Of a stretch of 64,000 nt of DNA, positions 21,786 through 52,105 are shown piece by piece. The stretch spans positions 62,001-126,000 of the forward strand of contig DAHUYF010000117.1 in the NCBI GenBank assembly GCA_027315365.1, read 5' to 3'. A model generated the notes under the pieces. It worked only from the letters and a program-made list of their open reading frames with translations, did not search any database and was not told where the DNA came from. Source of the DNA: Rhodospirillales bacterium (GTDB taxonomy: Bacteria > Pseudomonadota > Alphaproteobacteria > ATCC43930 > CGMCC-115725). The first letter of the stretch is position 1. Every line of letters starts with the position of its first letter. The translations under genes and the position numbers were made by a program.

Positions 21786-22106
21786 ATGCGTGCCCTCAAG
21801 CTCCTGGTTGCGGTCATGGGCGTGCTGCTGGTGGGCGGCACCGCGGCGCTGATCGTCGCCGTCATCGACCGCGCCCGCCATCGCGTCGCCGCACCGGCGC
21901 CCGCCGTGGCGCATGGCTTCGACCGTGCCGTGATCGATTTGCCGGCAGGGGCGCGGGTGCTCGGCAGCGACTCGGTCGGCGATCGTCTGGCGGTGCGCAT
22001 CGGCCTTGCCGACGGCGGCGAGGCGCTGATCCTGATCGATCCCCGCAGCGGCGCGCGGCTCGGCACCATCGAGCTGCGGCCGGCGGCGCCGGGCGGCGGC
22101 AAGTGA
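21786..22106 (+). CDS. Small membrane protein, DUF6476-like
   Basis: 106 aa with one N-terminal transmembrane helix (Leu-Leu-Val-Ala-Val-Met-Gly-Val-Leu-Leu, about residues 6-28) and a periplasmic or cytoplasmic beta-rich tail. Position next to rluD and rpoH and the N-terminal pattern resemble the alphaproteobacterial DUF6476 proteins; I give this name from memory of gene context. The ATG follows CCGGAAGC, a weak ribosome site. The stop overlaps the GTG start of the threonine aldolase gene (GTGA), so the two are translated together. Confidence 0.7.
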   Translation: MRALKLLVAVMGVLLVGGTAALIVAVIDRARHRVAAPAPAVAHGFDRAVIDLPAGARVLGSDSVGDRLAVRIGLADGGEALILIDPRSGARLGTIELRPAAPGGGK

Positions 22107-23125
22107 ACTTCCGCAGCGACAACGTCGCCGGCATCGCACCCGAGATCCTCGCCGCCATCGTCGCCGCCAATGCCGGCACCGCGCCCTCCTACGGCGCCGA
22201 CGCCGTCACCGAGCGGCTCGCCGCCGCCTTCGCGGCGGTGTTCGAACATGAAGTGACCGTCTTCCCGGTGGCCACCGGGACCGCCGCCAATGCGCTGGCG
22301 CTGGCGACGCTGACGCCGGTCTGGGGCGCGATCTACTGCCACGAGGCCGCGCATGTGCAGACCGACGAATGCGGCGCGCCGGAATTCTTCGCCGGCGGCG
22401 CCAAGTTGCTGCCGCTGCCCGGCGAGGATGGCAAGCTGGCGCCGGCGGTGGTCGAAGCGGCGCTGACCGAGGCCGGCGTCGTCCACCACGTCCAGCCCGC
22501 TGCCCTCAGCATCAGCCAGGCGACCGAAGCCGGCACTCTTTACCGCCCGGCCGAGATCGCTGCGCTCGGCGCGCTGGCGCGCCGCCGCGGCTTGGCGCTG
22601 CACATGGACGGCGCCCGCTTCGCCAACGCCGTGGCGGCGCTCGGCTGCAGCCCGGCCGATCTCACCTGGCGCGCGGGCGTCGACGTGCTGTCCTTTGGCG
22701 CCACCAAGAACGGCGCGCTCGCTGCCGAGGCGGTGGTGTTCTTCGACGCGGGCAGGGCGCAGAGCTTCGCCTATCGCCGCAAGCGCGGCGGCCATCTCTT
22801 CTCCAAGATGCGCTTTCTCTCGGCGCAGCTCGACGCCTATCTCGCCGACGGGCTGTGGCTGCGCAACGCCGCCCAGGCCAACCGCATGGCGGCGCGGCTG
22901 GCGGCGGGCCTTGCCGCGCTGCCGGGCGCCAGGCTGAGGCATCCAGCGGAGGCCAACGAGGTCTTCGTCGAGCTGCCGGCAGCGGCGGTTGCCAGGCTCG
23001 AGGTGGCGGGCGCAGGCTTCTATCGCTGGGGCGGCGCGGGCGCGGCTTGCCTGCGCCTCGTTACCGCCTTCGATACGCAGCCGCGCGACGTCGAGGCGTT
23101 CATCGCCTCGGCGCGCGGCGGCTGA
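22103..23125 (+). CDS. ltaE: Low-specificity L-threonine aldolase (beta-eliminating lyase family)
   Basis: 340 aa, PLP fold type I. The N-terminus Asn-Phe-Arg-Ser-Asp-Asn-Val is the family start. The substrate and cofactor motifs His-Met-Asp-Gly-Ala-Arg-Phe-Ala-Asn-Ala (near 167) and Ser-Phe-Gly-Ala-Thr-Lys-Asn-Gly-Ala (PLP lysine near 201) are intact. It splits L-threonine or L-allo-threonine into glycine and acetaldehyde, or acts on related beta-hydroxy amino acids. It starts with GTG overlapping the upstream stop. No operon partner explains a specific role. Confidence 0.85.
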   Translation: MNFRSDNVAGIAPEILAAIVAANAGTAPSYGADAVTERLAAAFAAVFEHEVTVFPVATGTAANALALATLTPVWGAIYCHEAAHVQTDECGAPEFFAGGAKLLPLPGEDGKLAPAVVEAALTEAGVVHHVQPAALSISQATEAGTLYRPAEIAALGALARRRGLALHMDGARFANAVAALGCSPADLTWRAGVDVLSFGATKNGALAAEAVVFFDAGRAQSFAYRRKRGGHLFSKMRFLSAQLDAYLADGLWLRNAAQANRMAARLAAGLAALPGARLRHPAEANEVFVELPAAAVARLEVAGAGFYRWGGAGAACLRLVTAFDTQPRDVEAFIASARGG

Positions 23126-23328
23126 CGCGCCGGCGATAAAGGAAACATAAACCACGCTGCGCTCGGCACCGGGACTCGGGGCCGCGGCGGCGCGACGTTT
23201 TTCGTTTCGCGGGCGCATCGACCGCCTGCCGCGCGGCCGGCGCGCGCACCGCATCGCCGCTCGCGGTGCCGACAGCGTTCCCGGCGCCACGGACTCGCAA
23301 AAAACTTTGTCCCGGGGTGAATTTTTTC

Positions 23329-23356
23329 TTGCATCGCCACGTTTTGAGCGTATGTA
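23329..23356 (+). promoter_or_regulatory. Candidate promoter of the ornithine decarboxylase leader
   Basis: TTGCAT at 23329-23334 and TATGTA at 23351-23356 are 16 bases apart, inside a conspicuous AT-rich patch in GC-rich DNA. Transcription would begin near 23363, giving a leader of about 370 nt before the ODC ATG. Confidence 0.5.
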
Positions 23357-23470
23357 TCCAAATCACGACGCACTCGCACGTGCCTATGGCCCTTGTGGTT
23401 ATGCAACGACGTAACGCGTCCTTTTTGGCAGAGCCGGTCGCTGTGGGCCGGTCCCGAGAGGGAGGTCGAT

Positions 23471-23587
23471 ATGGTTGCAATCGCACTCAGGGCCGCGGCG
23501 CCCTGGCCTGACGAGACACCTCGTTTCATCCGGGCTGCGCGCGGCAGCGGTGGCCGGGGCGCCAACGAACCCAGCAGTCAGATCTGA
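23471..23587 (+). CDS. 38-codon upstream ORF in the ODC leader
   Basis: An ATG with GGGAGG five bases upstream opens a 38-residue frame that ends at 23587, 147 bases before the ODC start. The peptide begins Met-Val-Ala-Ile-Ala-Leu-Arg and is Arg/Gly-rich toward its end. In E. coli the unrelated speFL leader peptide senses ornithine and controls the decarboxylase by ribosome stalling. An analogous role here is a hypothesis; the ribosome site and position are what is seen. It could also be a fortuitous frame inside a structured RNA. Confidence 0.4.
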   Translation: MVAIALRAAAPWPDETPRFIRAARGSGGRGANEPSSQI

Positions 23588-23734
23588 GCGGAGTTGTCCA
23601 GGACCACGGCGGATCGCCCCCGTGTCATGGACCGAGTTTCGCTCCACCGCTTTCCTCCGTGAGGGGGCAGCGGTAGAGCGCGCCGACGAAGTGAACCGTC
23701 GACGCGCGCCCTGACGACAGGATACCCAGCCGAA

Positions 23735-24895
23735 ATGAAGAAGAAGATCGACCGCAAGATCGAGCGCAACCGCAAGATCGAGAAGTTCCTCGCCGAGAAG
23801 CAGCCCGAGACGCCGTGCCTCGTCGTCGACCTCGACGTGGTCGCCGAGGCGTATCAGCTGCTGCGCACCTACATGCCGATCGCCAAGGTGTACTACGCGG
23901 TCAAGGCGAACCCCGCCGGCGAGGTCGTCGACCTGTTGCGCGGTCTCGGCTCCGCCTTCGACGTGGCGAGCCGCGGCGAGGTCGATCTCTGCCTCGGCCT
24001 CGGCGTTACCGCCGACCGGATCTCCTTCGGCAATACCATCAAGAAGGAGCGCGACATCGCCTACGCCTTCGACAAGGGCGTGCGGCTGTTCGCCTTCGAC
24101 AGCGAGGCGGAGCTGGAGAAGCTCGCCCGCTCGGCGCCGGGGGCGCGGGTCTTCTGCCGCATCCTGGTCGACGGCGAGGGGGCGGAGTGGCCGCTGTCGC
24201 GCAAGTTCGGCTGCGCGCCGGAAATGGCGGTGGAGCTGCTGCGCCGCGCCAAGGCGGCCGGGCTCGACCCCTACGGCGTCTCCTTCCATGTCGGCTCGCA
24301 GCAGACCAATCTCGACCAGTGGGACAGCGCCGTCGGCCGCGCCGCGACGATGTTCTCGCTGCTGGCCCAGACCGACATTAACCTGCGCATGGTCAATATC
24401 GGCGGTGGCTTCCCGGCGCATTACCGCGGCGACGTGCTCGGCGTCGAGCGCTACGCCCAGGCGGTGATGGCGGCGATCACCCGGCATTTCGGCAACGACC
24501 TGCCGGAGATCGTGGTCGAGCCCGGCCGCTCGATCGTCGGCGACGCCGGCGTCATCCAGAGCGAGGTGGTGCTGATCTCGCAGAAGGCCTTCGGCGACGC
24601 CAAGCGCTGGGTCTATCTCGATGTCGGCAAGTTCAACGGCCTTGCCGAGACCATGGACGAGAGCATCAAGTACCGCATCCGCACGCCGGCCGATGGCGGG
24701 CCGAGCGGCGGGGTGGTGCTGGCAGGCCCGACCTGCGACAGCGCCGACATTCTCTACGAGAAGACCGAGTACCGGCTGCCGATGGCGCTCAAGGTCGGCG
24801 ACAAGGTGCAGATCCTTTCCACCGGTGCCTACACCGCGAGCTACGCCTCGGTGGGCTTCAACGGCTTCGCGCCGATCAAGACCTACTGCATCTGA
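23735..24895 (+). CDS. Ornithine decarboxylase (PLP fold type III)
   Basis: 386 aa, the eukaryotic-like alanine-racemase-fold decarboxylase. PLP lysine is Lys57 in Tyr-Tyr-Ala-Val-Lys-Ala-Asn-Pro. The glycine loop Ile-Gly-Gly-Gly-Phe-Pro-Ala near 218 and Glu-Pro-Gly-Arg-Ser-Ile-Val near 260 bind phosphate, and Cys334 in Gly-Pro-Thr-Cys-Asp-Ser-Ala-Asp is the active-site cysteine from the partner subunit. It makes putrescine from ornithine; lysine may also be used, as in some bacterial relatives. A lysine/arginine-rich N-terminal helix is present. It overlaps the convergent vWA gene by 20 nt. Arginase in this window (39.4 kb) could supply ornithine. Confidence 0.88.
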   Translation: MKKKIDRKIERNRKIEKFLAEKQPETPCLVVDLDVVAEAYQLLRTYMPIAKVYYAVKANPAGEVVDLLRGLGSAFDVASRGEVDLCLGLGVTADRISFGNTIKKERDIAYAFDKGVRLFAFDSEAELEKLARSAPGARVFCRILVDGEGAEWPLSRKFGCAPEMAVELLRRAKAAGLDPYGVSFHVGSQQTNLDQWDSAVGRAATMFSLLAQTDINLRMVNIGGGFPAHYRGDVLGVERYAQAVMAAITRHFGNDLPEIVVEPGRSIVGDAGVIQSEVVLISQKAFGDAKRWVYLDVGKFNGLAETMDESIKYRIRTPADGGPSGGVVLAGPTCDSADILYEKTEYRLPMALKVGDKVQILSTGAYTASYASVGFNGFAPIKTYCI

Positions 24896-25622
24896 GCGGC
24901 GTGACGGGACAGGGCGGAACGGCGGCGCGGCGAATCGGCCGCGCCGCCGTCACTTCGTTGAGCAGCTTCTGCCGCATGGCGGCGATGAAGGAGGCGAAGT
25001 CCTCCACCTGCATCAGGAAGCCGCCGCGGCCGCCCACCACGTTCTGGTCGTAATAGCCGTCGAGCCAGGGCTCGTGCTTGAGGATGGCGAGTCCGTTGAT
25101 GGTGACCCCTTCGGCCACCAGCCGGTCGCGGACCTGCTGCGGCGGCGGGCCGATATTGGCCATGCCGTCGCCGGAGACGTCGATGACGCGCCGCGCCGCC
25201 GCGTCGGGCAGCCGCGCGAGCGCTTCGCCGGCGGCGTCGAGCGCGTCGCCGATGGCGGTGAGGCCGTTCGAGCTGCGCTGGGTCGCCCGCACCTCGGCGG
25301 CAAAGCGCGCGGCGCCGGCGGCGTCGGCAATCCGGGTCCAATCGACCGTCACCACCTGCTTGTCGCGATCCGACCACTCCATCACCAGCACGTCGATGGC
25401 GCCGTTCCGGCCGTTGCGGATGGCGGCGATCAGCGGCGCGCTCTCGAACGCCTTGGCAATGCCTTCGTGCTGCAGCTCGTATTCCTCGGCATCGACGCTC
25501 TCCGACACGTCGACGGCGAGTACCAGCGCGAGATCGACCGTGGCCGCACGCGCCGGGAGCGCAAGACCTGACACGGCCAAGGTTGCGAAGGCGGCGAGGG
25601 CGATGGTGCGGGCGATCGGCAT
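24876..25622 (-). CDS. Secreted von Willebrand factor A domain protein (DUF1194 type)
   Basis: 248 aa with a cleavable signal peptide ending near Ala-Arg-Ala-Ala (residues 22-28). A metal-ion-dependent adhesion site motif Asp-Val-Ser-Glu-Ser-Val-Asp lies just after it, then Val-Met-Glu-Trp-Ser-Asp and Val-Ile-Asp-Val-Ser-Gly-Asp-Gly-Met-Ala-Asn, the blocks I associate with DUF1194. The ATG at 25622 has GGAGGG upstream; an upstream extension is a basic-rich open frame without support. Function unknown; periplasmic protein-protein contacts are likely. The C-terminal 20 or so residues are Pro/Arg-rich and overlap the end of the ODC gene. Confidence 0.8.
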   Translation of the reverse strand: MPIARTIALAAFATLAVSGLALPARAATVDLALVLAVDVSESVDAEEYELQHEGIAKAFESAPLIAAIRNGRNGAIDVLVMEWSDRDKQVVTVDWTRIADAAGAARFAAEVRATQRSSNGLTAIGDALDAAGEALARLPDAAARRVIDVSGDGMANIGPPPQQVRDRLVAEGVTINGLAILKHEPWLDGYYDQNVVGGRGGFLMQVEDFASFIAAMRQKLLNEVTAARPIRRAAVPPCPVTPLRCSRS

Positions 25623-25786
25623 GGCTTCTGTCCCTCCGACACTATGCGGGGCCGAATTTGGCAGAAGGATGGCGCGGCGACGGAACGAGGCAAACCGCCG
25701 GCGCCGCCGCGATCCGAGGTTGCCGCCGACGCCGCCTTGCGGCCATAATCGCGCCGTCCCGCGTTCTCTGGAGCGAAGAGGCAAGA

Positions 25787-26242
25787 ATGCGTTCAGCACC
25801 TGTCATCACCCTGGCCGTCCTTGCCGTCATCGCCGCCACGGCGGGCGACCGCGCCGGCGGCGCGGAGAAGGAGCCCCCGGCCTGCGCTGCGATCACCTTC
25901 CGGCCGGTGCCCTCGGGCCTGTCCGATGGCGAGCAGAATGCCGGATTATATAAATCGCGCTTCGGCCGGATCGAGGTGATGGCGACGGTGAAGAGTGGCG
26001 AGGCCGTCGATTATTTCGTCGACGTCAACGGCAAGCGCCCGGACGCTATCGCCGGGACGTTGCCGGCGAGCATCGCCGCCTGTGCCAAGGCCAAGCGCCT
26101 CGGCCCGGTCGGCAACCCGCCGGAGCATTGCCTGGGCGACAAGCTGGCGGTGCTGATCGATCATACCGGCGCTCAGCGCTACGTGCTGCTCTACGCCCAC
26201 CGCGGCAGCGAATGGCATTTCTGCAGCGTGGGGGGTGCGTAG
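25787..26242 (+). CDS. Secreted protein of unknown function, 151 aa
   Basis: A signal peptide covers about residues 1-20 (Val-Ile-Thr-Leu-Ala-Val-Leu-Ala-Val-Ile). The mature protein has four cysteines (near 33, 98, 113 and 146), compatible with two disulfides in the periplasm. An AGAGG site lies before the ATG. I do not recognise a domain. It diverges from the vWA protein gene, so a shared regulatory region of about 164 bases lies between them. Confidence 0.65.
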   Translation: MRSAPVITLAVLAVIAATAGDRAGGAEKEPPACAAITFRPVPSGLSDGEQNAGLYKSRFGRIEVMATVKSGEAVDYFVDVNGKRPDAIAGTLPASIAACAKAKRLGPVGNPPEHCLGDKLAVLIDHTGAQRYVLLYAHRGSEWHFCSVGGA

Positions 26243-52012: not shown

Positions 52013-52105
52013 GGAGGGGTGGCCGAGTGGCTGAAGGCGGCGGTTTGCTAAACCGTTATAGGGGGAATACCCCTATCGTGGGTTCGAATCCCATCCCCTC
52101 CGCCA
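52013..52105 (+). tRNA. tRNA-Ser (anticodon GCU)
   Basis: The acceptor stem GGAGGGG pairs with CCCCTCC, the anticodon GCT is at 52047-52049 within TTGCTAA, a long variable arm (GGGGG ... CCCC) is typical of tRNA-Ser, the T-loop reads TTCGAAT, and CCA is encoded at the end. It decodes AGC/AGU codons. A perfect TTGACA promoter lies just upstream. Confidence 0.97.

Follow-up and report, generated by a model that had tools for sequence, protein, structure and literature searches.

To our knowledge, alpha-r45 has no known function, and both speF and alpha-r45 have been around for years without a function or a ligand. In E. coli and Salmonella, the leader peptide SpeFL precedes an ornithine decarboxylase (ODC) gene, and in E. 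coli this peptide senses ornithine. The leader described here is comparable in that it places a leader peptide, with a proposed ribosome sensing, before an ODC gene; however, E. coli SpeF is a fold I enzyme and the decarboxylase studied here a fold III enzyme, which we take to be different enzyme families, and we know of no resemblance between SpeFL and the peptides reported below.

In-line probing of the A. tumefaciens speF RNA by Corbino et al. in 2005 detected no binding of ornithine or polyamines (PMC1273637). Alpha-r45 is made as a separate transcript in Bartonella, and in S. meliloti it co-immunoprecipitates with Hfq (PMC7717549). A third leader from Alphaproteobacteria, the odc1 motif, was published in 2021 as an ODC leader with an upstream open reading frame (uORF-25-1) and reporter evidence for its translation, obtained in E. 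coli (PMC8632094); a uORF-bearing ODC leader as such is therefore already published. Like odc1, the locus analyzed here has an alphaproteobacterial ODC leader RNA with a conserved uORF and a ribosome-binding site in the right shoulder of a stem. In contrast, odc1 encodes an invariant 11-residue peptide that starts at a UUG and lies two nucleotides from the UUG of the main frame, whereas in the present type an AUG opens 31 to 61 codons in ODC leaders and the ODC frame follows approximately 40 to 240 nt after the uORF stop. Our own example has 38 codons from an AUG and a stop 147 nt before the ODC ATG. This separation from odc1 is drawn from the published description of its layout.

Layout of the Locus

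The window, by which we mean the whole 64,000-nt stretch of Rhodospirillales DNA that was analyzed, contains a 609-nt intergenic gap (23126–23734), the size given by the first-pass annotation. The gap is flanked by a threonine-aldolase-like gene of the Beta_elim_lyase family (22103–23125) and by the gene of a decarboxylase whose closest solved structures are lysine/ornithine and ornithine decarboxylases. The features of this region are collected in Table 1. Beside the ODC gene lies a convergent gene (24876–25799, minus strand), which is apparently kept there in several family members, as judged from similar sequence in the flanks of L008, L009, L012, and L015.

Table 1. Features of the ODC leader in the window
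Feature	Position	Strand	Details and evidence
Promoter	23329–23356	+	-35 TTGCAT 23329–23334, 16 nt, -10 TATGTA 23351–23356; sequence and relatives
R1 leader element, diverged alpha-r45 + speF type	23363–23480	+	R1 covariance model, 120.7 bits, E 4.6e-30 (not an independent score, the window sequence being part of the model alignment)
Alpha-r45-like domain	23367–23420	+	P1 GACGC 23367–23371 with GCGTC 23416–23420
U tract	23422–23426	+	Putative terminator tail, from homology to alpha-r45; able to pair with the purine tract of the uORF Shine-Dalgarno
Purine tract GAGAGGGAGG	23456–23465	+	Holds uORF Shine-Dalgarno GGGAGG 23460–23465; sequence, conserved blocks
38-codon leader-peptide ORF (uORF), MVAIALRAAAPWPDETPRFIRAARGSGGRGANEPSSQI	23471–23587	+	Conserved start/stop context; synonymous:nonsynonymous 38:3 in genus
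Hairpin AGGGC/GCCCT inside uORF	23489–23504	+	By eye in alignment; varies, yet kept in relatives
Codons of C-terminal motif P-S-S-Q-I	23570–23584	+	SS[MILQ] enrichment in nonredundant uORFs
ODC ribosome-binding region	23711–23722	+	CTGAC 23711–23715, Shine-Dalgarno ACAGGA 23717–23722; sequence, complementarity
ODC-like fold III PLP decarboxylase, 386 aa	23735–24895	+	Pfam PF02784 and PF00278

The promoter proposed in the first-pass annotation was found in its place and is conserved. A TTGC-16-TA...TA/C promoter occupies the same position in all 24 relatives with enough upstream sequence to be scored, always with a spacer of 16 nt, while a generic sigma-70 consensus scan did not flag the window copy. 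Transcription is predicted to start near 23363. The earlier estimate of a leader of about 370 nt holds, and promoter, leader, GGGAGG site, and 38-codon ORF are all conserved.

Relation of the Leader to speF and Alpha-r45

The leader had been proposed as a candidate speF RNA, with a covariance search as the check. Scanning it with the Rfam models of speF (RF00518, at least 37 bits) and alpha-r45 (RF02347, at least 40 bits) produced no match at the gathering threshold or at E ≤ 1. RF00518 was also without a match across the whole genome of the window, as was RF02347 for that genome in the class search, and the window-type relatives that were tested were missed by Rfam as well. A covariance model built from 49 window-type leaders (R1) did recover canonical speF/alpha-r45 leaders with modest scores (L033, E 1.6e-7; G068, E 4.8e-5; G263, E 8.2e-4). 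The proposal was hence correct in kind, in that the leader is a diverged homologue, and incorrect in expecting a covariance match.

In canonical loci, Rfam places alpha-r45 immediately 5' of speF, and the conserved blocks of the window type recur in these loci in unchanged order. The closing helix P1 is GCCC/GGGC in canonical alpha-r45 and GACGC/GCGUC in the window type; the pairing is preserved despite the replacement. Because of the shared block order, the helix swap that keeps the pairing, and the R1 matches to canonical leaders, we identify the window element on sequence grounds as a diverged alpha-r45 plus speF leader. Like alpha-r45, it has the blocks CGCACGUGCC and GCAACGACG and a closing helix just 5' of the U tract. 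Like speF, it sits before a COG0019 ornithine decarboxylase and has the order GCAACGACG...U tract, hairpin, purine tract, ...UUGC. It differs from both in lying below Rfam detection, from alpha-r45 in its closing helix, and from speF in the AUG and reading frame described below.

Within the alpha-r45-like domain, the conserved blocks are CGCACGTGCC (23375–23384) and GCAACGACG (23403–23411). Across the aligned leaders of relatives, the invariant blocks read GACGCA..CGCACGTGCC.ATGGCCC...GTGGTTATGCAACGACG....GCGTCCTTTTTGG, followed by a variable hairpin and then by CCGAGAGGGAGGTCGATATGGTTGC. In 48 distinct sequences, 98% of cells in the alpha-r45-like domain were paired. For the U tract and the purine tract, pairing was possible in 96% of cells. 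Covariation did not exceed that of shuffles for the U tract and purine tract, nor for the stem pairs of the element inside the group, since the columns are too conserved. The folding energy of the element alone, as a single sequence, gave an uninformative z of -0.87. At L111:1741–1858, the element has ACUUCC in place of the U tract, and the swapped bases are still able to pair with the GGAGGU Shine-Dalgarno.

Distribution and Downstream Genes

R1 matched 37 of the 39 genomes of the window's family, including all 21 with at least 90% completeness and at most 5% contamination. In a sample of the class Alphaproteobacteria, 70 of 385 genomes had a match, and every R1-positive genome of a phylum sample (13/13) was alphaproteobacterial. 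The Rfam alpha-r45 and speF models each matched 11 of 289 class genomes.

Among the 82 R1 loci of the class, 49 precede ODC and 24 precede a second type III decarboxylase, in many cases with a homospermidine synthase or deoxyhypusine-synthase-like gene behind it. Four lie before homospermidine synthase–ODC operons (L160, L167, L175, L178) and one before speD-speE (L187); the other four comprise two at contig edges, one before a glutamine amidotransferase, and one before an unknown ORF. A polyamine gene was thus downstream in 78 of the 80 loci having enough downstream sequence. The homospermidine synthase and speD-speE loci carry short uORFs of their own, approximately 14 codons before homospermidine synthase and 8 before speD. 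The presence of the element before homospermidine synthase and speD-speE, each with a short uORF, suggests a polyamine regulon.

The Short Open Reading Frame and Its Peptide

The first-pass annotation had also described a 38-codon ORF behind a GGGAGG site with its stop 147 bases before ODC, and this was borne out. Among the 30 relatives that were looked at first, 28 keep its start and Shine-Dalgarno site, and the remaining two have the element one gene farther upstream, which argues that the uORF is more than a chance frame. A first survey of the family that allowed mismatches at the start codon found AUG in 28 of 28. In most R1 loci, the AUG and Shine-Dalgarno occupy a constant position within the element's 3' arm, a count biased towards AUG because R1 was built from AUG-bearing sequences. 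The frame behind this AUG is either short, as with the ODC leader peptide of the window's lineage and several others, or, at 12 ODC loci, that of ODC itself. Loci with an in-frame AUG include L074–L076, L079, L082, L086, L097, and L105 (mostly Parvibaculum), and the N-terminal extension of ODC, roughly 50 residues or more, replaces the separate leader peptide. This use as the start of ODC argues that the AUG is a real start. A conserved uORF was also considered for the canonical speF leaders and rejected: three-frame translation of 40 loci found no AUG at the structural position, and indels break the frames. In the canonical Rhizobiales and Thalassospira leaders, accordingly, this position lacks an AUG and no frame is conserved.

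In the genus-level alignment of the uORF, nine of the 12 variable columns were third codon positions, and synonymous differences outnumbered nonsynonymous ones 38 to 3. The synonymous bias on which the earlier proposal had staked the ORF is therefore clearly present. The ten members of a sister clade had 52 variable columns, of which 28 were third positions (p 0.0018). These substitution patterns indicate that the uORF is under coding selection, and it is probably translated. The uORFs of the ODC set span 31 to 61 codons, and across lineages the central part of the peptide shows no conservation. Before the second decarboxylase and homospermidine synthase, the uORFs have 8 to 16 codons and encode very different peptides.

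Conservation of the peptide is concentrated at its end (PSSQI, PSSLS, PSSIG, NPLSSQ, NPLSSM, etc.). Of 69 nonredundant uORFs, 44 had the motif SS[MILQ] among their final 15 residues, compared with 1.6 ± 1.2 in codon shuffles, and with 2 and 0 in the other two reading frames. Within the window's own family, three genera lack the motif, as does one of the two members of a fourth (L005–L011, L014, L025, L027). In the leaders of other polyamine genes, the sole match was the speD-speE uORF MSGSSLRG, possibly by chance. The uORF thus combines traits of arrest peptides: conserved C-terminal residues, codon-level selection, and a divergent remainder.

The first Ser of the motif is encoded by TCG, TCC, TCT, TCA, AGC, and AGT, and the use of both codon families points to selection on the amino acid, i.e., on the peptide. 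The second Ser (codon 36 in the window, 23576–23578) is AGT in 41 of the 44 nonredundant ORFs, so part of the motif conservation may be at the RNA or codon level. Separately, the window contains a tRNA gene (52013–52102) with an anticodon that reads GCU by eye, that is, a tRNA-Ser for AGU/AGC, the codon kept in the motif; this is probably a coincidence.

Complementarity of the uORF End to the ODC Ribosome-Binding Region

To score complementarity between the end of the uORF and the ODC ribosome-binding site (RBS), we used a swapped-partner control, which replaced a shuffled-sequence control. In 37 loci, the last ten uORF codons were more complementary to the 45 nt just 5' of their own ODC gene than to the same region of other loci, with a z of -5.5 against swapped partners. 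Other segments of the uORF gave no complementarity signal, and the effect weakened with distance from ODC along the spacer. The complementarity is plain in Reyranella L062 (CCCCGTC/GACGGGG) and in L080 (CTTTCCAGTC/GACTGGAGGGG). The match in the window is short, with GTCAG of the uORF (23577–23581) facing CTGAC (23711–23715), and is weakly supported by the window itself. Ensemble folding with the uORF end covered predicted a small rise in the accessibility of the ODC Shine-Dalgarno, from 0.33 to 0.39 (p 0.012 versus free, 0.13 versus control); the window sequence showed no such gain (0.52 to 0.47). A Rho-type C-rich stretch 3' of the uORF was also looked for and rejected, as there was no marked excess of C over G. 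Neither this pairing nor selection on the peptide fully explains the single AGT codon kept at the second Ser.

Proposed Mechanism and Alternatives

Taken as a diverged alpha-r45/speF leader that carries a conserved, probably translated short ORF, the locus suggests that ribosomes may help to control the amount of polyamine. Ribosome-sensing control, put forward in the first-pass annotation, is plausible from these comparisons. With moderate confidence, slightly better than an even chance, we propose a leader of two layers, an RNA element and a translated leader peptide whose ribosome would tune ODC translation. In the first layer, the first half of the element would close into the alpha-r45 fold ending in the U tract, a premature terminator by homology; we infer termination at this tract because alpha-r45 is a separate transcript in Bartonella (PMC7717549). 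The second half would form a stem-loop, and there the U tract could cover the Shine-Dalgarno of the 38-codon ORF. In the second layer, the ORF would be translated, and its peptide is selected mainly at the C-terminal SS[M/I/L/Q] beside the stop. This motif could slow or arrest the ribosome from within the tunnel upon an ODC-related signal. Our first guess for that signal is ornithine, since the motif is confined almost entirely to ODC leaders, in contrast to the RNA element, which is common to a wider set of polyamine genes. With a ribosome halted at the ORF end, the last codons would then be kept from pairing with the ODC ribosome-binding region, and ODC translation would presumably increase. 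Against this reading stand the loss of the motif in part of the window's own family, the small predicted gain in accessibility, the level of covariation, the AGT preference at the second Ser, and the negative probing of the A. tumefaciens speF RNA with ornithine and polyamines.

The complementarity of the uORF end to the ODC RBS region could also be read as a device for translation coupling, in which the ORF is translated but only the transit or termination of the ribosome near the ODC start matters and the peptide goes unread. Such a reading would accommodate both the very different 8- to 16-codon peptides before the second decarboxylase and homospermidine synthase and the lineages in which the AUG simply starts ODC. 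We regard it as unlikely, as SS[MILQ] recurs far beyond chance with two Ser codon families, for which pairing alone offers no explanation.

The long invariant blocks, and the sharing of the element among polyamine genes that include speD-speE and homospermidine synthase, would suit a metabolite-binding riboswitch in which a polyamine or related ligand sets both termination and access to the AUG, with the ORF secondary. In-line probing of the A. tumefaciens homologue found no ligand, however (PMC1273637), the fold lacks covariation beyond shuffles within the group, and the coding selection on the ORF would be left unexplained; we therefore consider a riboswitch quite improbable. Chances are slimmer still that the element is mainly a source of an alpha-r45-like trans-acting small RNA, with the ODC leader as a mere host transcript. 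The separate Bartonella transcript and the co-immunoprecipitation of S. meliloti alpha-r45 with Hfq (PMC7717549) speak for it, but nearly every copy is co-oriented with a polyamine gene that follows it immediately, and the ORF 3' of the U tract is conserved. Least credible is that the ORF encodes an independently acting small protein. Its codon-level conservation would fit, but lengths spread between 31 and 61 codons, the peptides have just their first residues and the C-terminal motif in common, and other lineages have the ORF fused to ODC.

Returning to the two-layer leader, the comparison suggests that speF and alpha-r45 are two halves of one leader type, shows this type in front of further polyamine genes as well, and gives it a genuine start of translation. 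This union and its start offer a directly testable route, by a leader-peptide ribosome or by attenuation at the U tract, for polyamine control in Alphaproteobacteria, many of which share the system. More broadly, and only tentatively, as we put its chances somewhat below even, a widespread family of leader RNAs, not represented as such in Rfam, may constitute an alphaproteobacterial polyamine regulon (ODC, the second decarboxylase, homospermidine synthase, and speD-speE). Many of its ODC copies would carry a nascent-peptide sensor with a (P)SS[M/I/L/Q] end, by which an ODC-specific metabolite would be reported to the ribosome and ODC translation switched.

In the literature that we searched, we came across no description of the alpha-r45 plus speF union with a translated ORF, of an SS[MILQ] leader peptide, or of an extension of alpha-r45/speF to homospermidine synthase and speD-speE. 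The remark in the first-pass annotation that ribosome reading of the alphaproteobacterial leader was not known is right only in part, given the odc1 uORF of 2021 and the reporter evidence for its translation (PMC8632094).

The genome of the window contains a second R1 copy (L205:1901–1979; G000:C177:38443–38521, minus strand) before an ODC paralogue of 56% identity. In this copy the alpha-r45 half persists, but no U tract, purine tract, or ORF is left.
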